From positions 1-64,000 of the forward strand of contig CAILEM010000109.1 in NCBI GenBank assembly GCA_903833215.1: a DNA stretch of 64,000 nt. Reading direction: 5' to 3'. The notes beneath the pieces are model-generated. The model had not been told where the DNA came from. It saw nothing but the letters and a program-made list of their open reading frames with translations, and searched no databases. The DNA comes from an uncultured Armatimonadota bacterium. Its GTDB lineage: Bacteria; Armatimonadota; Fimbriimonadia; Fimbriimonadales; Fimbriimonadaceae. Position 1 is the first letter of the stretch. Each line of letters begins with the position of its first letter. Positions 36,392 to 44,518 of the stretch are shown piece after piece. A program made the translations under genes and the position numbers.

Positions 36392-36709
36392 ATGGCAGAA
36401 GCACGCACCCAATCCCGTGAAGGCTTTGTAACAATTAATGTTTTCGTTGTTGAACCCCACCCAGGCGGAGACGGTTCCTACGAGAACCCGCACTTCCTAA
36501 AGCGCGGAACCATCCCCGTGTTCTTGCTCGAACTCCGCGCTCCGTTGCTCATTGATGAGAATGAGTACGAATGGGTCGACGCTTGTTACGACCTTGCTCA
36601 CCACGAGGTAATGGCGTTCGTGAAGCATGATCCAGGCGAAGAAAAGGTTATCAATGCGGCCAAGGCACTCGTTCCTGATATCGCGCGTTATGGCGTAACT
36701 TCCGGTTAG
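36392..36709 (+). CDS. Hypothetical protein
   Basis: A 105-residue soluble acidic protein without signal peptide or membrane segment. It contains TINVFVVEPHPGGDGSYENP and EWVDACYDLAHHEVMAFVKH. I do not recognise the family. A strong terminator 35 bp downstream shows the transcript ends here, which supports a real, monocistronic gene. Confidence 0.6.
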   Translation: MAEARTQSREGFVTINVFVVEPHPGGDGSYENPHFLKRGTIPVFLLELRAPLLIDENEYEWVDACYDLAHHEVMAFVKHDPGEEKVINAAKALVPDIARYGVTSG

Positions 36710-36743
36710 GAATATATAATCCCCGCGCTAAACGTTGAGTTTC

Positions 36744-36785
36744 GGCGTACCTGATTCTATACTTCAGGTACGCCGTCCTTTTTTT
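36744..36785 (+). terminator. Rho-independent terminator
   Basis: An 11-bp stem GGCGTACCTGA / TCAGGTACGCC with a 9-nt loop is followed by GTCC and then a run of seven T residues (to 36785). It lies 35 bp after the stop of the 36392-36709 gene. Confidence 0.9.
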
Positions 36786-36796
36786 GGCGACAGTAT

Positions 36797-37135
36797 ATGA
36801 TCGACACCTATATCAACCTCGATGGCTCCCCCTGGGGGAAACTGTCGATGTCATTTAAGCCGAATCCGGAGCATATGGTCGACCAGGAGCCGTTCGACGC
36901 CCTCTGCGATTCGATCCAGGCCCTCACACAGGGTGAAATCGAGTTCACCGCAACCCAAAAACCGTGTTTTGTCCATAGAGAAGGGGTGTGGCGAGATCTT
37001 GAATTCCTGCTCGAGCCGGACGGGACTTTGATTGCAAACGTGTATGTTTGCTGCCGCCAATACGCTCCTGTGATCGGTCCGTCAATGCCTCAACTTGAGT
37101 CATTCATCAAACGGAAACTTAAGCTCGTAGTCTGA
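36797..37135 (+). CDS. Hypothetical protein
   Basis: A 112-residue protein with two Cys-containing segments (FDALCDSIQAL and VYVCCRQYAP) and no signal peptide. It is not recognised. Its last 36 bp overlap the convergent 37100-37360 gene. It starts 12 bp after the terminator of the previous gene, so it needs its own promoter or is read from a leaderless start. Confidence 0.5.
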   Translation: MIDTYINLDGSPWGKLSMSFKPNPEHMVDQEPFDALCDSIQALTQGEIEFTATQKPCFVHREGVWRDLEFLLEPDGTLIANVYVCCRQYAPVIGPSMPQLESFIKRKLKLVV

Positions 37136-37360
37136 GATGCCGTTGCGCTCCAGTGTGGCGGCAAATGTAGCCTTAAAACCTGGGGGGAGAGACATGGTTT
37201 GTCGACATTCGTAGCATTTTACGACGACCGTGGGGCAGTTCGGGTCGTTGAGCCGAATGAGAGGCCGCCAGCCATGGATACACCATAAGTCGCTGACGGC
37301 GTCGGTAAGTTTGGTCAGAAGGGCTCGCTCATCAGTCGCCTGCGGAGAGGTCGTATCCAT
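37100..37360 (-). CDS. Small hypothetical protein with a CxxC motif
   Basis: An 86-residue protein with CIHGWRPLIRLND and a CYECRQTM motif, which could bind a metal, perhaps with the upstream Cys and His. Its function is unknown. Its 3' end overlaps the convergent neighbour by 36 bp, so at least one of the two stop positions may be under weak constraint. Confidence 0.5.
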   Translation of the reverse strand: MDTTSPQATDERALLTKLTDAVSDLWCIHGWRPLIRLNDPNCPTVVVKCYECRQTMSLPPGFKATFAATLERNGISDYELKFPFDE

Positions 37361-37393
37361 AGATGCTTTTGAGCCTATTCTAACCGTCGAGTT

Positions 37394-37618
37394 CTAGTAA
37401 AGGCCGATGACTTCTTTGAACAGGACTGTGACGTGTTTTGGGACCGCTGCCTTGCCAACGGTTTGTACACAAGCGTAAGTTTCGGTGAGCGGACTGTGGC
37501 GAATTTGGAAACTTTGGAAGTCAGAGCGCAATCGCACGGCTTCGGAATCCTTGAACTCCGCCTCAATCATGATGTAGGGTTCGCCCTTGCTGTCTTTCGT
37601 GGTGATTGCTATTCGCAT
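37394..37618 (-). CDS. Small hypothetical protein
   Basis: A 74-residue soluble protein (MRIAITTKDSKGEPYIMIEA at the start) with regular alternating beta-type pattern. No motif or homologue is recognised. It is on the same strand as, and downstream in order from, nothing nearby, so it is probably monocistronic. Confidence 0.45.
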   Translation of the reverse strand: MRIAITTKDSKGEPYIMIEAEFKDSEAVRLRSDFQSFQIRHSPLTETYACVQTVGKAAVPKHVTVLFKEVIGLY

Positions 37619-37700
37619 ACCTCAGCATAGCCGCAAAACCCAATGTTATTCGGTTTACCGGCAAAGTGACCACACGGCGGAAGTGAGTAGACTGGAGACC

Positions 37701-37973
37701 ATGCCCCAAACAATCTGGCGAGAGCCAACGGACCTCGAGTCGTCAAACGTGTTCGAGATCGTTCGTCGGGTCGACTTCGTCGATCCCGCAACCAAGATGT
37801 CCATGACTCGAGTCAGTATGTTCCGTGAGGGCGATACCAGAACCCGAATCACCAAAGAGGTCTCCGCCAGCGACCACCAACCGCTCTCCGACTGGGAACT
37901 CATCGTGGTGTCCGACGGCGACATGCGCAAAGCCAAACGAGTCAACGAAGTCCTATTCGTCGACGCCAGCTGA
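37701..37973 (+). CDS. Small hypothetical protein
   Basis: A 90-residue soluble protein starting MPQTIWREPTDLESS. The ATG at 37701 has GGAG 5 nt upstream, which favours it over an upstream in-frame start at 37587. It is rich in charged residues and shows a compact alpha/beta pattern. No family is recognised. Confidence 0.55.
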   Translation: MPQTIWREPTDLESSNVFEIVRRVDFVDPATKMSMTRVSMFREGDTRTRITKEVSASDHQPLSDWELIVVSDGDMRKAKRVNEVLFVDAS

Positions 37974-37993
37974 GGCCGAATTTCACGCCGAAG

Positions 37994-38314
37994 TTATCCT
38001 TTTCCTGGGAATTCGCTCGGAAAGTCTGTATCGAGGGAAAACTCTCGGACCTCAAGATACGCCCGCCGGATGATAGACGGTTTTGACATGGGCACCTCTA
38101 TGTAAGCTCGGATTACTACGAACTTTGGATCTGAGTCGAAGCATGGCCACGAAAGAATCGTACCGGTGGGCGGAAGCGATGGGAACTCAGCCGTGAACAT
38201 TACCTCAGATCGTGCTGAACTACGAACGACTCCTACAAGCCATGAAGTTTCTGACATGGTTGAATTATGGAGAGTGAACTCGTACAACACTCTCCGGATA
38301 CTCTCGCCTTCCAC
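37994..38314 (-). CDS. Doubtful small hypothetical protein
   Basis: A frame of 106 codons (or 87 from ATG 38257) without visible ribosome-binding site or motif. It faces the 37701-37973 gene. It is kept because it is the longest open frame in this stretch and its composition is not absurd, but it could be spurious. Confidence 0.3.
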   Translation of the reverse strand: MEGESIRRVLYEFTLHNSTMSETSWLVGVVRSSARSEVMFTAEFPSLPPTGTILSWPCFDSDPKFVVIRAYIEVPMSKPSIIRRAYLEVREFSLDTDFPSEFPGKG

Positions 38315-38352
38315 ACCCTGAGGGAAGTAGTCGCCATCTACCTAACTCAGTG

Positions 38353-38378
38353 GACAATGACGGTGTGACGTCATTGTC
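38353..38378. promoter_or_regulatory. Perfect 10-bp inverted repeat (operator or hairpin)
   Basis: GACAATGACG and its exact reverse complement CGTCATTGTC are separated by 6 nt. No T tract follows on either strand, so it is not an intrinsic terminator. It lies in the 280-bp gap upstream of the 38594 operon, where a regulator site would be expected. Confidence 0.5.
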
Positions 38379-38593
38379 GAGAATCCGCACGACCAAGCGA
38401 TGAATCCGTGTTCTTTCACGCGAAGCTCAGCCGCATAGGCGGTGAAAGAGTAAAGTGCAATTCAACCGCCTCTGTATAGCATTAATGAGCGATATGGCAT
38501 CTGGCGTCTACAGGCAAACATGTTTACAAGAAACCGTTCCGAATAGTTGACAGTGTGCAAGGCACCCCTACTTAGGCGTAGAATGTTCTTACA

Positions 38594-38911
38594 GTGGACT
38601 TAGTCAACGGTTTGACGCCAGAAGCAAAAACGGCAACAGTAAAGCTAACTGCGACTCGAGAAGAAGTTGCTGCCGCTCCATTTGCGTATGCTAATCATGT
38701 TGAGGTTAGGGCAACGGCGGACGAAGTGTTCTTGACGTTCTACGTTCGACAAGATTACGCCGCCGTAATTGTGGATGGAGTCATGGAAAGCCATGTAAAG
38801 CCTGTCATCACACTGGTCGTCGCACCCGAAGTCGCATCGCGAATTATTGCTGCTGTTGGGACGGTAATTCCTCCAAAGATCGGAGTGCCTGATGCAGTGG
38901 AAACACCTTAA
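38594..38911 (+). CDS. DUF3467-like small protein
   Basis: A 105-residue protein. The AYANHVEVRATADEVFLTFYV strand pair followed by VKPVITLVVAPEVASRII resembles DUF3467, whose members pair a short beta core with a helix that starts (S/A)PE-A. Function is unknown. It begins with GTG at 38594 and its last 20 bp overlap the next gene, which puts it at the head of a three-gene operon with the DUF433/DUF5615-like pair. The family match is by eye only. Confidence 0.5.
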   Translation: MDLVNGLTPEAKTATVKLTATREEVAAAPFAYANHVEVRATADEVFLTFYVRQDYAAVIVDGVMESHVKPVITLVVAPEVASRIIAAVGTVIPPKIGVPDAVETP

Positions 38912-39134
38912 AAGACGCCCGGGGTCAAAATACAGGCAACTATTCATTGCGGGAACACGCATCATGGCGTCTTCCTTGGTTGGAACTATGCGCGCAGAAA
39001 ACATGAGCGTAGAAGAGGCGGCGTCGGATTTCCATGTATCAATTTCTGCTGTTCGTGAAGCTATTCGTTACTGTCACCTTCACAAAAGGTTGATCGACGC
39101 AGAGACAGAAGAAGTGCGTCTGTTGTTTAGCTAA
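38892..39134 (+). CDS. DUF433-like helix-turn-helix antitoxin
   Basis: An 80-residue protein with the DUF433 pattern: a short N-terminal strand segment (FIAGTRIMASSLVGTMRAENM), then the helix-turn-helix VEEAASDFHVSISAVREAIRYC and a C-terminal helix. DUF433 proteins commonly precede DUF5615 PIN-like genes and are regarded as the antitoxin and repressor of that pair. It overlaps the upstream gene by 20 bp and lies 7 bp before its partner. Confidence 0.75.
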   Translation: MQWKHLKRRPGSKYRQLFIAGTRIMASSLVGTMRAENMSVEEAASDFHVSISAVREAIRYCHLHKRLIDAETEEVRLLFS

Positions 39135-39141
39135 CCTCGGC

Positions 39142-39489
39142 ATGTTGAAGTATTTATTAGACGAAAATGAATCTTCACGGCTTGAAGTCGCATTGGCAGC
39201 ATCAGGAAGAGACGTTGTGTCAATAACAGGTCTAAAAATGATGCGCACAAAAGATCCGAAGGTTTTAGAGTTCGCACACCAGGAAGGCAGAGTAGTCATC
39301 ACCCAGAATGCGAAAGATTTCAAAGAGCTTCACGAGGCATCAACCGATCACTCTGGGATCATGGTTCATTACAACCAGAACGGCGCAGCATTGACATCTG
39401 AAGTGTTGACGTTCGCTGTCAAAAGAGCCGAAGAGTTCTATCCCGATATGAGTGGACAATTCGTTAGTTTGAATAACTTCCAGTGGTGA
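39142..39489 (+). CDS. DUF5615 PIN-like protein (probable toxin)
   Basis: A 115-residue protein with the DUF5615 layout: LLDENESSRLEVALAASGRDVV at the N-terminus, KDPKVLEFAHQEGRVVIT and the QNAKDFKEL segment in place of the usual T-x-D-x-DF, so one acidic residue is Asn here. These proteins are related to PIN nucleases and are predicted RNases of DUF433/DUF5615 toxin-antitoxin pairs. It is the last gene of the operon. Whether the Asp-to-Asn change spoils catalysis cannot be judged by eye. Confidence 0.75.
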   Translation: MLKYLLDENESSRLEVALAASGRDVVSITGLKMMRTKDPKVLEFAHQEGRVVITQNAKDFKELHEASTDHSGIMVHYNQNGAALTSEVLTFAVKRAEEFYPDMSGQFVSLNNFQW

Positions 39490-39680
39490 ATAAGAGCAAG
39501 CCGCGTATTAGCGCGGCCTCTCCCGTCGGGTTTCTCTCGACTTTCACCTCCTAGGGAAGAACACCGCCTAACAGATTTGGCATTCAGTCGCGCCTAGCGT
39601 GACTGACTTACCGCTTTGCTGCTGTGCTATCTGAGTCTGGTTCAAGGCAGAGTCCGATCTGTCTTGAGGGCATAGCCTTT

Positions 39681-39737
39681 CATAATTCGCATTATCATTG
39701 AAAGAGGTCCGTACTTTCTGATAATGTGCATTATGAG
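39681..39737. promoter_or_regulatory. Pair of 18-bp palindromes in inverted arrangement
   Basis: TCATAATTCGCATTATCA (39681-39698) and TGATAATGTGCATTATGA (39720-39737) are both near-palindromes of the form TCATAAT-N4-ATTATCA. Together with GAAAG/CTTTC they make a larger inverted repeat (39681-39705 against 39715-39737). The second site covers the start region of the next gene. A third copy is at 41159. They may be operators of one local regulator; half-sites resemble those of Fur boxes, and the ATAA-N6-TTAT core also recalls Xer recombination sites. Confidence 0.5.
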
Positions 39738-40035
39738 AGTCGGCGCTCTTGGGAGGAAACAAACCCCACAAACGGGGCGAAGTCCCGCCGAAATAGCGAG
39801 ACGACTCGCGGGTGAAGTCTACGGGGCGTTCGTGGGGATGGACGCGGATAGCCCCGATACGCTGGACGAAGCAGTGCGCGTAGTCAAACGGCGCAACAAG
39901 AACCGGGAAGACGAACTGATCTATAAACTGCCAGCTCCGGAAGGCAAAGAATATACCCTCGTTCCTCTTTTAACGAAGACAGGCATAATCGGGCTGGTGT
40001 ATGGCGTAGGGGCTAAGGAACACCCAACTATTTAA
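39733..40035 (+). CDS. Small hypothetical protein
   Basis: A 100-residue basic protein (from ATG 39733; an ATG at 39724 is also open) with GRSPAEIARRLAGEVYGAFV and a central VVKRRNKNREDE helix. It is not recognised. Its start codon lies inside the palindromic site at 39720-39737, so a protein bound there would block its expression directly. The next plus-strand gene begins 10 bp downstream. Confidence 0.5.
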   Translation: MRVGALGRKQTPQTGRSPAEIARRLAGEVYGAFVGMDADSPDTLDEAVRVVKRRNKNREDELIYKLPAPEGKEYTLVPLLTKTGIIGLVYGVGAKEHPTI

Positions 40036-40045
40036 TGACGAACAT

Positions 40046-40345
40046 ATGAGAATTACAATAGAGCACAACGACGGGCGGATCGAACAAATTGATACTGCCG
40101 ACGGATGGAAGATGATCCTTGATGAGGACATTGAGACGAGCGATGCCGGAGACCTCTCAGAGGCGGTAGCAATCCATTGCCTGCGAAAGCATTCCGAGAA
40201 ATCAGTGCGGTCATTAGACAAGGTGTATCCCGAACTTGCCAACTCCCTCGCATTTCCAATGCTATGCGCTGGGCCTTACATTAAGTCCGTCGCTGAGGAT
40301 GGCACCATTACGCTCAAGCCCTGTCACCCACTGGTAGTCGGGTAA
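40046..40345 (+). CDS. Small hypothetical protein
   Basis: A 99-residue protein whose N-terminus (MRITIEHNDGRIEQIDTADGWKM) resembles that of the 40581-40781 product (the I..DDES.G....L..SEGWKL pattern), suggesting a shared small fold or duplication. It follows the 39733 gene by 10 bp. Its 3' end overlaps the convergent 40262-40465 frame by 84 bp, so one of these two calls may be wrong. Confidence 0.45.
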   Translation: MRITIEHNDGRIEQIDTADGWKMILDEDIETSDAGDLSEAVAIHCLRKHSEKSVRSLDKVYPELANSLAFPMLCAGPYIKSVAEDGTITLKPCHPLVVG

Positions 40346-40465
40346 CGGCAGACTAAGTTCGTGGTCAATGTTCGGCTGCTTTCCATCGTCGGTACTAAGT
40401 GTTAGAAGTATCCGATCATCACGCTTGCGGATTTTCACAATCCGACAGAGTCTTAGGTATTCCAT
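40262..40465 (-). CDS. Small hypothetical protein with structured leader
   Basis: A 67-residue protein (MEYLRLCRIVKIRKRDDRIL at the start). A GGAG site 8 nt upstream of the ATG, and a leader hairpin nearly identical in its loop to that of the 40814-40972 gene, support expression. Not recognised. It overlaps the plus-strand 40046-40345 frame at the 3' end. Confidence 0.5.
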   Translation of the reverse strand: MEYLRLCRIVKIRKRDDRILLTLSTDDGKQPNIDHELSLPLPDYQWVTGLERNGAILSDGLNVRPSA

Positions 40466-40473
40466 TTTTCTTT

Positions 40474-40532
40474 CTCCTATGGCGCAGGGCTCAAAATTTG
40501 GTAGTGGCGAGCCCTCGCCGTCCTGAATTCTA
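40474..40532 (-). promoter_or_regulatory. Leader: TAGAAT box, hairpin with 16-nt conserved loop, RBS (copy 1)
   Basis: On the minus strand: TAGAAT (40527-40532), then 12 nt, then a hairpin with stem GGGCTC/GAGCCC (40487-40514) around the loop GCCACTACCAAATTTT, then 9 nt, GGAG, 8 nt and the ATG at 40465. An outer GGCG/CGCC stem can extend it. The same order and loop recur at 40980-41036 with a different but equally paired stem. Confidence 0.6.
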
Positions 40533-40580
40533 GCAGCCGTGGCATTCAGTCTCGACTCGGAAGTGTGATAGAATTGTCAC

Positions 40581-40781
40581 ATGACGACGGTGATTATCAG
40601 GGACGACGAAAGCGGCGCAGAGCGAACGCTGAGTGAGTCGGAAGGCTGGAAGTTAACAACCTGGGATTTTTTACTGATCGACGGCACTCACGCGTTGACC
40701 ATCGTGGCATCCGATCATTCGAGCACTTCCAGCGATCCCGATTCGATCAATCGCGCTCGTGATAAATATCTTCCGTCGTAG
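40581..40781 (+). CDS. Small hypothetical protein
   Basis: A 66-residue protein starting MTTVIIRDDESGAERTLSES. Its first 25 residues resemble those of the 40046-40345 product (GWKL/GWKM at the end of the match). It is acidic and soluble with no motif. The gene is divergent from the 40262-40465 gene and shares its intergenic region, including the structured leader. Confidence 0.45.
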   Translation: MTTVIIRDDESGAERTLSESEGWKLTTWDFLLIDGTHALTIVASDHSSTSSDPDSINRARDKYLPS

Positions 40782-40813
40782 ATGACAACATCGATGATCT
40801 GAGCAGGAAGTAG

Positions 40814-40972
40814 TCACGGATGAGCTAATGTGCTGAAGGGGATCACCATCTTCGACGCAGTATTTGGCGAACGAGGCACAAGGGTAATGTCACAAACATC
40901 GGCTTCCTGCTTTCGATTTGTGACAAGCCAGGCATTCTTCGCCTCATCTTCAGTCGCAAGTCTCCAATACAT
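40814..40972 (-). CDS. Very small hypothetical protein with structured leader
   Basis: A 52-residue protein (MYWRLATEDEAKNAWLVTNR at the start). The ATG at 40972 is chosen because GGAG stands 7 nt upstream in the same arrangement as in the 40465 gene. An in-frame longer reading from 41113 passes through the leader and its ECHGC segment without a stop, so a longer protein of 99 residues cannot be excluded. Confidence 0.45.
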   Translation of the reverse strand: MYWRLATEDEAKNAWLVTNRKQEADVCDITLVPRSPNTASKMVIPFSTLAHP

Positions 40973-40979
40973 TTTCTTT

Positions 40980-41036
40980 CTCCAAACGTGAGCCCCCAAA
41001 ATTTGGTAGTGGCGGGGGCCACGTTTCTCCATTCTA
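40980..41036 (-). promoter_or_regulatory. Leader: TAGAAT box, hairpin with 16-nt conserved loop, RBS (copy 2)
   Basis: On the minus strand: TAGAAT (41031-41036), 11 nt, stem GCCCCC/GGGGGC (40992-41019) around the identical loop GCCACTACCAAATTTT, 8 nt, GGAG and the ATG 7 nt later. The stem is extended by GTG/CAC with a one-base bulge. All but a few stem positions differ from copy 1 while pairing is kept. A shared GAATGCCACGGCTGC lies upstream of both copies. Confidence 0.6.
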
Positions 41037-41158
41037 ACCCGAAGGAAGTCGCAGCCGTGGCATTCGATGGCGACTTGTCGTCGTCGATTTACCGCTTGAT
41101 CCACGACGGCCATCTTCCTCTCGGCGCGACTCCTGTCGTGCGAGAGTACTAGCCGACT

Positions 41159-41176
41159 TCATAATAATGATTATCA
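41159..41176. promoter_or_regulatory. Third copy of the TCATAAT-N4-ATTATCA palindrome
   Basis: TCATAATAATGATTATCA, followed by GAAAG as in the 39.7-kb copies. The last 15 bp agree with the Fur-type 7-1-7 pattern TGATAATNATTATCA at 13 of 14 defined positions. It overlaps the start codon region of the next small gene. Confidence 0.5.
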
Positions 41177-41400
41177 GAAAGATAATCAGAATCGATTTGG
41201 ATGGGTCGGAAGGGGCTGTTGGGGTTGGCTCGGTGAGGTCGTTTGAGGCTGGTTTTGGTGGTGCCATGTTGGAATTCGCGTTCTCAACAGGTCACTTATC
41301 ACGTGCTCTCGAATTTTTCGCGTTGTACGGCGATTTGCTGAAAACGAGCAAAGAAATTCAGCGACTTGTCGCGGCTGATTTCAAGTTTCAGCTGGATTGA
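41167..41400 (+). CDS. Small hypothetical protein
   Basis: A 77-residue protein (MIIRKIIRIDLDGSEGAVGV at the start) with a hydrophobic, partly helical C-terminal half. It is not recognised. The ATG lies inside the palindromic site at 41159-41176, the same arrangement as at 39733. No ribosome-binding site is visible, so the start is uncertain. Confidence 0.4.
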   Translation: MIIRKIIRIDLDGSEGAVGVGSVRSFEAGFGGAMLEFAFSTGHLSRALEFFALYGDLLKTSKEIQRLVAADFKFQLD

Positions 41401-42511: not shown

Positions 42512-42621
42512 GATTTACACTTATAAAGACGACCAAACACGGCGCTTGGTTTTAGTCTTAGGTACAAGTACCTCGCATTTTACCGAGGTAGACGCGTTTT
42601 CGTGTGCAGAGAGAGGAACAG

Positions 42622-42963
42622 ATGAAGATGAAGGCAACCGTTGATTTCAACGACATGCTGCAAACACTCCGCATGGTGAAGAAGATGGGGCCGATGAAAA
42701 ATCTTCTAAAAATGATTCCTGGACTGGCGACTACCATCCCAGAAGCGGCATTCGACGCAATAAATGACAAGGACATCGGTAGGATTCAGGCAATCATCCT
42801 GAGCATGACGCCGGCAGAGAGATCAACCCCGCGATTGATCAGCTATTCGCGGCAACGGCGTATTGCGGCAGGATCGGGCACCTCGGTCGACGAGGTGAAT
42901 AACCTGGTTCAAGACGTTTTGCGAAAGTCGAGGCCGTTTGATTGGACTTTTGGCGGCAAATAG
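42622..42963 (+). CDS. Free-standing duplicate of the Ffh M domain
   Basis: A 113-residue protein whose residues about 6-95 match the C-terminal M domain of Ffh encoded 600 bp downstream. The methionine-rich signal-peptide loop (MLQTLRMVKKMGPMKNLL) and the SRP RNA-binding RRIAAGSGT segment are both kept. The DNA agrees at about nine in ten positions over 170 bp by hand alignment. The last 20 residues (VQDVLRKSRPFDWTFGGK) are new. GAGAGG stands 6 nt before the ATG at 42622, so it could be translated. It lacks the NG GTPase domain; it may be a decaying duplicate or a competitor for SRP RNA or signal peptides. Confidence 0.75.
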   Translation: MKMKATVDFNDMLQTLRMVKKMGPMKNLLKMIPGLATTIPEAAFDAINDKDIGRIQAIILSMTPAERSTPRLISYSRQRRIAAGSGTSVDEVNNLVQDVLRKSRPFDWTFGGK

Positions 42964-42965
42964 AG

Positions 42966-43139
42966 TCCATGGGCGGTGCCCACGGACCAGTTGGGGCGCG
43001 CCGTTGGCGCTTCGGATTTGGCGTGCTCCGAGTTCCTAGGGCGATGCCCTAGGCTATTGTTGGTACGCACCTTTGGTGCTCGGGCTTTTCCTAGGGCGAC
43101 GCCCTAGGCTATTGTTGGGGCGCACCTTTGGGGCTTGGC
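42966..43139. repeat. Palindromic block upstream of ffh, with a 55-bp tandem repeat
   Basis: Two tandem units of period 55 bp start at 43035 and 43090. Each opens with the palindrome CCTAGGGCGA(T/C)GCCCTAGG, then CTATTGTTGG and a CGCACCTTTGG segment. A third hairpin, TCCATGGGC-GGT-GCCCACGGA, lies at 42966-42986. No T tract follows, so these are not typical terminators. The block fills the gap between the M-domain duplicate and ffh. Confidence 0.75.
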
Positions 43140-43189
43140 CTGCCAGGACGCAACGGTTCTTGGGCGGACGGGGTACCTTAACTGTTCCG

Positions 43190-44518
43190 ATGTTGGATTC
43201 CCTCACGCGCCGGTTGGCCGGCATACTTTCGGGCTTAAGGGGCAAGGGCCGCCTTACCGAAGACGACGTTACCGAGATGCTTCGCGAAGTTCGCGTAGCG
43301 TTGCTCGAAGCGGACGTCAATTTCGCAGTCGCCAAGAGCTTTATTGCCAAGGTGAAGGAAAAAGCCGTCGGTGAGGATATCTACGGCAACCTCACTGCCG
43401 ATCAGACGATCATCAAAATCGTCAGGGACGAGCTCACCGAGATGCTCGGCACCGAGGCGCCAAAGTTTAACTACAATCCTTCGCCGCCCACCGTTATCTT
43501 GATGTGCGGGCTCCAAGGTTCGGGAAAGACGACCACCACGGCAAAACTCGCCAAGTGGCTCGTCAGCCAAGGCAAGAAACCGATGCTTGCCGCCTGCGAT
43601 ATTCAACGCCCGGCTGCCGTCAAGCAGCTCGAAGTTTTGGGTGAGCAGGTCGAAGTTCCCGTCTTTGCCAAGCTGGACGGCACTTCCCCGGTCGAAATCG
43701 CCCGTGAAGCGCTCGCTCGCTGCAAGCACTTGATGCTCGACGTCCTGATTGTCGACACTGCCGGCCGCTTGCAGGTCGATGATCTTCTGATGAAGGAACT
43801 TCATCAGATTTCTGACGCGACGAAACCAAGCGAAGTATTTTTGGTGCTGGATTCCACCACCGGACAAGAAGCCGTGCACGTCGCGGAGGCATTCCATAAG
43901 GAAGTCAAGCTGACGGGTGCGATCTTCACCAAGCTCGACGGTGACACACGTGGTGGTGCCATCCTCAGCGTTCGAGCTTCCACCGGAGTACCGGTTCGAT
44001 TTATCGGGGTGGGAGAGCAAGTCGATGCCCTCGACACTTTCTATCCCGATCGTATGGCCCAGCGAATCATCGGTATGGGCGATGTCATGGGAATCATCGA
44101 GAAGGCCCAACAGGTCATCAATCAAGATGAAGCCGAAGACATCGAACAAAAGATGATGCGGGGCAACCTCGACTTCAACGACATGCTGCAAACATTCCGC
44201 ATGATGAAGAAGATGGGGCCGATGAAAAATCTCCTCAAAATGATCCCTGGACTGTCGACTGCCATCCCAGAAGAGGCATTAGACGCAATAAATGACAAGG
44301 ACACGGGTAGGATTGAGGCAATCATCCTGAGCATGACGCCAAAAGAGCGATCAAATCCGGATATAATTAACGGTTCGCGACGAAAGCGTATTGCTGCAGG
44401 CTCGGGTACGACTGTCGAAGAGGTAAATAACCTTCTCAAACAGTTTTACGGGAGTCGACGTGGGATGAAGCAGATGATGCAAGTCCAAAAGAAAATGAGC
44501 AAGCGCGGACGGCGATAA
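43190..44518 (+). CDS. Signal recognition particle GTPase Ffh
   Basis: A 442-residue protein, full length. N domain (residues 1-85), G domain with GLQGSGKTTTTAKLAKWL, DTAGRLQ and TKLDGDTRGGAILS, and a C-terminal M domain with the Met-rich loop and RKRIAAGSGTTVEEVNNLL for 4.5S RNA. It binds signal peptides at the ribosome and delivers the complex to FtsY. The start at ATG 43190 (MLDSLTRRL) agrees with family starts; a longer reading from 43073 runs through the palindromic block. rpsP and khpA follow, a common bacterial arrangement. Confidence 0.97.
   Translation: MLDSLTRRLAGILSGLRGKGRLTEDDVTEMLREVRVALLEADVNFAVAKSFIAKVKEKAVGEDIYGNLTADQTIIKIVRDELTEMLGTEAPKFNYNPSPPTVILMCGLQGSGKTTTTAKLAKWLVSQGKKPMLAACDIQRPAAVKQLEVLGEQVEVPVFAKLDGTSPVEIAREALARCKHLMLDVLIVDTAGRLQVDDLLMKELHQISDATKPSEVFLVLDSTTGQEAVHVAEAFHKEVKLTGAIFTKLDGDTRGGAILSVRASTGVPVRFIGVGEQVDALDTFYPDRMAQRIIGMGDVMGIIEKAQQVINQDEAEDIEQKMMRGNLDFNDMLQTFRMMKKMGPMKNLLKMIPGLSTAIPEEALDAINDKDTGRIEAIILSMTPKERSNPDIINGSRRKRIAAGSGTTVEEVNNLLKQFYGSRRGMKQMMQVQKKMSKRGRR

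Follow-up and report, generated by a model that had tools for sequence, protein, structure and literature searches.

Leader hairpins with a common 16-nt loop in an Armatimonadota bacterium and in a phage probably of its lineage as candidate targets of pT181-type antisense RNA

Two leader hairpins with one loop

The 64,000-nt stretch of DNA analyzed here (the window; contig CAILEM010000109.1 of an uncultured Armatimonadota bacterium) contains two small genes, A and B, each preceded by a hairpin with the same 16-nt loop on a different but still paired stem, and a hairpin of the same kind heads a gene in a tailed-phage contig (L046). On balance, we favor the explanation that the three hairpins are the sense (target) half of an antisense control of the pT181 type, a block of translation being the probable outcome. 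Recognition hairpins of the pT181 kind serve plasmid copy control.

Both copies lie on the minus strand. The order is TAGAAT-12 nt-GGGCTC-loop-GAGCCC-9 nt-GGAG-8 nt-ATG in copy A and TAGAAT-11 nt-GCCCCC-loop-GGGGGC-8 nt-GGAG-7 nt-ATG in copy B, and thus the layout described in a preceding sequence-only reading of this DNA (TAGAAT, hairpin, GGAG, and ATG in both copies) is confirmed. The hairpin of copy A (GGCGAGGGCTC-loop-GAGCCCTGCGCC, 40481..40519) carries the loop GCCACTACCAAATTTT (40493..40508; AAAATTTGGTAGTGGC on the plus strand, with the U-turn UUGG), the -10 box TAGAAT (40527..40532) being located 18 nt upstream of the loop within a promoter-like TCGAGA-17-TAGAAT arrangement (9/12 matches), and the Shine-Dalgarno sequence GGAG at 40474..40477. 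The hairpin of copy B (AAACGTGGCCCCC-loop-GGGGGCTCACGTTT, 40984..41026) has an identical loop (40998..41013), a TAGAAT box 17 nt upstream of it (41031..41036), and GGAG at 40980..40983. With the closing C and G, 18 nt are identical between A and B, and the inner stems are re-paired, as had been claimed. The earlier description of the hairpin holds for the inner stem, but it missed the outer stem (GGCG/CGCC in A, AAACGTG/CACGTTT in B), which is set off from the inner one by a bulge on the 3' side (G in A, T in B). The predicted folding energies are -20.5 kcal/mol (z -2.9) for A and -22.2 kcal/mol (z -3.0) for B, and the ATG follows approximately 11-16 nt past the hairpin. The distance from loop to ATG is 43, 41, and 40 nt in A, B, and L046 (phases 1, 2, and 1); as the phase differs, the peptide RHYQIL, once considered as a possible cause of loop conservation, is not kept in one frame. 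TAGAAT is also found close upstream of other small-gene starts (36380, 38579, and 40569 on the plus strand; 37382 on the minus strand).

An upstream box (GCAGCCGTGGCATTC on the plus strand), also listed in the preceding reading as shared, is indeed present at both copies. Since it adjoins the -10 box in A (GAATGCCACGGCTGC, 40533..40547, minus strand) and lies 14 nt from it in B (41051..41065, minus strand), it does not qualify as a promoter element of fixed position. It was also dropped as a family marker, as matches with one mismatch outside the window fell in apparent coding sequence (L009-L012, L014). A diverged third box without a hairpin (39571-39595) aligns with the B region over about 45 nt.

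Genes A and B and their neighborhood

Gene A (40262..40465, minus strand) encodes 67 aa with no Pfam or PHROG match, and gene B (40814..40972, minus strand) encodes 52 aa, counted from the ATG that follows the Shine-Dalgarno sequence. Neither has a family match, the two proteins do not resemble each other, and among 291 genomes of the phylum (290 others) homologs were found in their own genome only. Across 36392-41400, small genes follow one another on either strand; most have no Pfam or PHROG match, and several have TAGAAT immediately before the start, as if leaderless. Genes encoding DUF433 and DUF5615 (PIN-like) proteins, a typical toxin-antitoxin type pair, stand side by side at 38892-39489. 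Palindromes of the form TCATAAT...ATTATCA, which we take to be Fur-box-like, are located at 39688-39738 and 41157-41181, upstream of the genes at 39724 and 41167. According to the translations, a diverged, partial duplicate of the ffh 3' region (42604-42963) lies beside the full gene (43073-44518). A plasmid search with the region gave no match.

Distribution in the phylum

The leader motif is present in two copies in this genome, and no third was found. A covariance model made from A and B (R2), as the sequence-only reading had proposed in order to find more copies, detected no further true copy in 20 genomes of the genus, 113 of the order, and 291 of the phylum, the genome itself being counted in each set. 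In the near-misses inspected (G142, G239, G036, G019, and G013), the loop was absent or the context was different; G142 is an rplK leader sharing a common Shine-Dalgarno stretch with the motif. An rplK leader of a phylum member other than the genome under study (L298, 1501-1545) contains GGAGAAAGAAAAATG together with a hairpin of its own; therefore, this stretch is not specific for the motif. A third loop match in the genome (C117, two mismatches) has no hairpin, nor is there a flanking one at L004-L006, three of the four one-mismatch matches in relatives. In all 24 loop matches on genome contigs, at most three pairs stand beside the loop.

Phage hairpins

In 2.9 million viral contigs, the S-loop-S pattern matched four. 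The tailed-phage contig L046/L296 was the sole contig from a loop-only scan with the full layout of -10 box, hairpin, Shine-Dalgarno sequence, and ATG: TAAAAT, 18 nt, the loop on an inner stem of eight pairs, a bulge, an outer stem of five pairs, and then AAGGAAGAAAATG. As it was located by the loop alone, with no part played by the stem, the recurrence of the full layout in one phage contig argues that the layout is beyond chance. The preceding reading had set pairing in further copies against random stem changes, and the inner stem of L046 again has different letters with the pairing kept. Searches with half-loop patterns combined with Shine-Dalgarno sequence and ATG gave 20 and 11 rows, L046 alone being real.

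The hairpin of L046 heads a 135-aa moron-like gene on the strand opposite to the late genes of the phage, whose major capsid protein has matches in 266 phage records. In tetranucleotide usage, compared over 185 sequence pieces, pieces of the window occupy ranks 0-3 and 7 by closeness to this phage. A relative of its capsid protein is encoded in 9 of 291 genomes of the phylum, five of them of the same family, and not in the genome under study (G000) itself. The tetranucleotide closeness and the capsid relatives indicate that the phage probably infects this lineage.

Loop variants with one to four changed positions were found in hairpins of eight Streptococcus phages, one Acinetobacter-like phage, and one AT-rich phage contig. 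Two of the viral loop scans gave at least 120 rows each; among the matches listed, 211 distinct viral sites were checked, and L046, L131 (9 pairs), and L145 (12 pairs) alone stand out. The latter two have strong stems and a loop starting with T, and were selected by stem; the background expectation over the 211 sites is 0.05 with at least 9 pairs and 0.0035 with at least 12. Their hairpins have neither the bulge nor an adjacent Shine-Dalgarno sequence. The membership of L131 is weakened by Acinetobacter phage Ab11510-phi, which has the same ATGAAATCAACAG start followed by a different hairpin. A further site, L085 with 6 pairs, was discarded because it read like coding sequence.

Comparison of leader A with named phages yielded five records, one of them intergenic by annotation: Streptococcus phage MissE1, with the loop TCCACGACCAAATTTT. 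A search with the MissE1 hairpin gave 24 records (13 Streptococcus, 10 Streptomyces, and 1 Bacteroides). A hairpin with a 16-nt loop is present in all eight of the 13 Streptococcus records that were read, MissE1 included, and was not seen in the Bacteroides record or in the one Streptomyces record of ten that was read. In seven of the eight Streptococcus phages (all but MissE1), it lies approximately 100-190 nt upstream of an integrase, recombinase, or invertase gene. By sequence reading, the MissE1 and L131 hairpins are downstream of a ribbon-helix-helix-like gene. In the eight Streptococcus loci (L339, L341-L346, L348), a pT181-type antisense RNA is likely, placed before an integrase or recombinase gene in seven; the Rfam family Spy779816 overlaps, below its cut-off, this likely RNA.

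Covariation of the stem

A, B, and L046 were aligned with the 10 other phage hairpins (13 rows). In this alignment, L046 and the Streptococcus phages (the latter close relatives of each other) form the unbiased part, since A and B had been chosen by the hairpin of the sequence-only reading and L131 and L145 by stem. Double-sided changes occur in 11 of 11 pairs (33 cells; shuffled alignments average 8.6), and pairing holds in 83.5% of cells, compared with 56.0 on average after shuffling; sliding of the partners lowers every measure, with 23-52% of cells pairing. A covariance model (R3) was trained on those 10 phage hairpins and on none of A, B, and L046; run over 83 kb with an E limit of 10, it reported exactly B (32.9 bits), L046 (30.6), and A (26.8). 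On 90 of approximately 340 loop-bearing and other loci (706 kb), sites without a real stem reached 27.5 bits; hence, B and L046 are clear of the background and A is not. Independent copies back the idea that the hairpin functions as RNA, with its loop fixed and its stem compensating.

The opposite strand

On the other strand, the loop reads AAAATTTGGTAGTGGC, again 16 nt with the U-turn UUGG. The YUNR motif (UUGG) is present in this antisense loop and absent from the sense loop; in loop-loop antisense systems, a YUNR U-turn occurs in one of the recognition loops (PMC4485353). The consensus hairpin of the Rfam family RF00242 (ctRNA_pT181) has a 16-nt loop, AAACUUUGGUcaGGGa. Opposite B, a weak RF00242 match was obtained (40967..41038, plus strand; 20.4 bits, E 5.8), below the gathering cut-off of 56, and A was unlisted; the three Streptococcus phages submitted all scored 29.9-33 bits, below the same cut-off. 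The earlier statement that no described motif has this loop is therefore right for the strand that was shown; read from the other side, the element resembles RF00242, at sub-cut-off scores. At gathering cut-offs, Rfam finds two tRNAs in the window and no riboswitch. In our literature search, which does not prove absence, neither this leader nor a pT181-type RNA at phage integrases turned up, and the loop sequence was absent from 5.39 million papers.

In other phages the antisense strand carries recognizable signals. In MissE1 it has TTGACA-17-TATAAT and, approximately 60 nt on, the hairpin with a T-run; in L145, a promoter is present on either strand (11/12 matches each) with the hairpin in between. 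In both, the antisense strand has a promoter and then, at the end, the hairpin with a T-rich tail. A two-hairpin antisense RNA is clear in these two, and folding of the plus strand of A allows a weak first hairpin. Counting against the antisense interpretation, no promoter or terminator was found on the plus strand at A and B, and no T-run follows the hairpin on the antisense strand in A, B, or L046. By estimate, cognate hairpins would pair at -90 to -102 kcal/mol, A with B at -42 to -43, and B with L046 at -67 to -68.

The leaders share several traits with that of pT181 repC: the antisense-strand 16-nt loop of the form AAA.UUUGGU...GG with the UUGG U-turn, also seen in RF00242, the sense hairpin at the mRNA 5' end, and variable paired stems. 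The pT181 leader makes a kissing contact with its antisense RNA through its first hairpin, and attenuators can be orthogonal even when their loops are identical (PMC3753616). Unlike pT181, A and B head small genes without a family match instead of rep, their leader is too short for attenuation (ATG approximately 11-16 nt after the hairpin), the antisense promoter and terminator are not seen, and the scores are under the Rfam cut-off. The pMV158 RNAII/copG-repB system is similar in that a counter-transcript upstream of the translation signals inhibits translation and in the ribbon-helix-helix-like gene preceding the MissE1 and L131 hairpins; it differs in that the pMV158 loops are without a U-turn (PMC4485353), and no CopG-like gene was found at A or B. 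Spy779816 (RF02589) matches the antisense-strand RNA of phage phiNJ2 (31.2 bits, cut-off 67), but has no match in the window.

Mechanism and alternatives

In the antisense model that we favor, the transcripts of A, of B, and of the phage gene in L046 would begin at or beside the 5' hairpin, the 16-nt loop being the docking target. The RNA of the opposite strand would expose the U-turn loop AAAAUUUGGUAGUGGC and kiss the sense loop; it would then pair along the stem and, as the Shine-Dalgarno sequence lies a few nucleotides past the hairpin in A, B, and L046, cover both this sequence and the start codon and so block translation. A translation block is preferred to attenuation, because an attenuator would not fit into the leader. 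Loops would stay fixed since pairing starts there, and stems would drift in paired steps; the stems could keep each sense/antisense pair specific, which fits the common loop and different stems of A and B. We infer the action of an antisense RNA on A, B, and L046, its origin in cis or in trans, and translation as the step affected. What weakens this model is the lack of a visible antisense promoter or terminator in the window; in place of an antisense RNA encoded there, the partner may be trans-encoded, or it may be a protein. The candidate targets are also not replication genes, which counts against the pT181 likeness.

An unlikely alternative is a protein-binding translational operator, in which a host or phage RNA-binding protein reads the loop on the helix and represses or stabilizes the mRNA. 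Such a protein would conserve loop and pairing equally well, and the fixed loop, the drifting paired stems, the 3'-side bulge kept in A, B, and L046, and the Shine-Dalgarno sequence adjoining the hairpin all agree with it; however, it leaves the opposite-strand U-turn loop and, in other phages, the promoter and terminator unexplained, and no candidate protein is known. The protein-binding leader of the preceding reading thus has no better support than an RNA partner, because the complementary strand shows a 16-nt loop with a U-turn, as is typical of pT181-type antisense RNA. It is improbable that the element is a partnerless 5'-terminal stabilizing or antitermination hairpin acting in cis: it starts at about the expected transcription start, but mere stability does not need a fixed 16-nt loop, and in other members the hairpin is the 3'-terminal element of a likely antisense transcript. 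No more credible is a recent duplication of promoter and leader with chance likeness elsewhere; the 505-bp spacing of A and B and the alignments (82% over 44 nt, 100% over 15 nt) speak for it, but a recent copy should retain the stem beyond the loop as well, the pattern recurs independently in L046, and the result with R3 also disfavors it. A compact pseudoknot riboswitch for a small molecule, with AUUUU of the loop pairing with AAAAU at the start codon, is very improbable: by reading, the 5-nt complement is present in A, B, and L046, but this match is of low complexity, L145 and L131 retain the loop without such a tail, and both copies in the window (L001), L072, L131, and L145 have no Rfam riboswitch match at E up to 5.

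Two known elements were rejected as identities. The C4 antisense RNA of phages P1/P7, considered for L131, had no Rfam match in the same four loci at E up to 5, and an integron attC site has GTTRRRY cores, which were not seen by eye, and would not have its fixed part in the loop instead of the stem ends.

Implications

Under the antisense model, a pT181-like recognition hairpin would stand before small accessory genes of a lineage that is remote from the staphylococcal and streptococcal hosts, and also in a phage probably of that lineage. A more speculative and rather doubtful extension is that the docking loop is common to phage and host, being carried by an accessory gene of the phage and by two ORFan genes of the chromosome, with the antisense RNA of one partner acting on the genes of the other and the stems tuned for partial cross-talk; if true, the common loop would be a plasmid-type RNA circuit between phage and host. 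A second outcome is a set of Streptococcus prophages in which an apparent antisense RNA lies upstream of the integrase. Finally, the covariation separates the part of the hairpin that is kept, the loop, from a part that may confer specificity, the stem.
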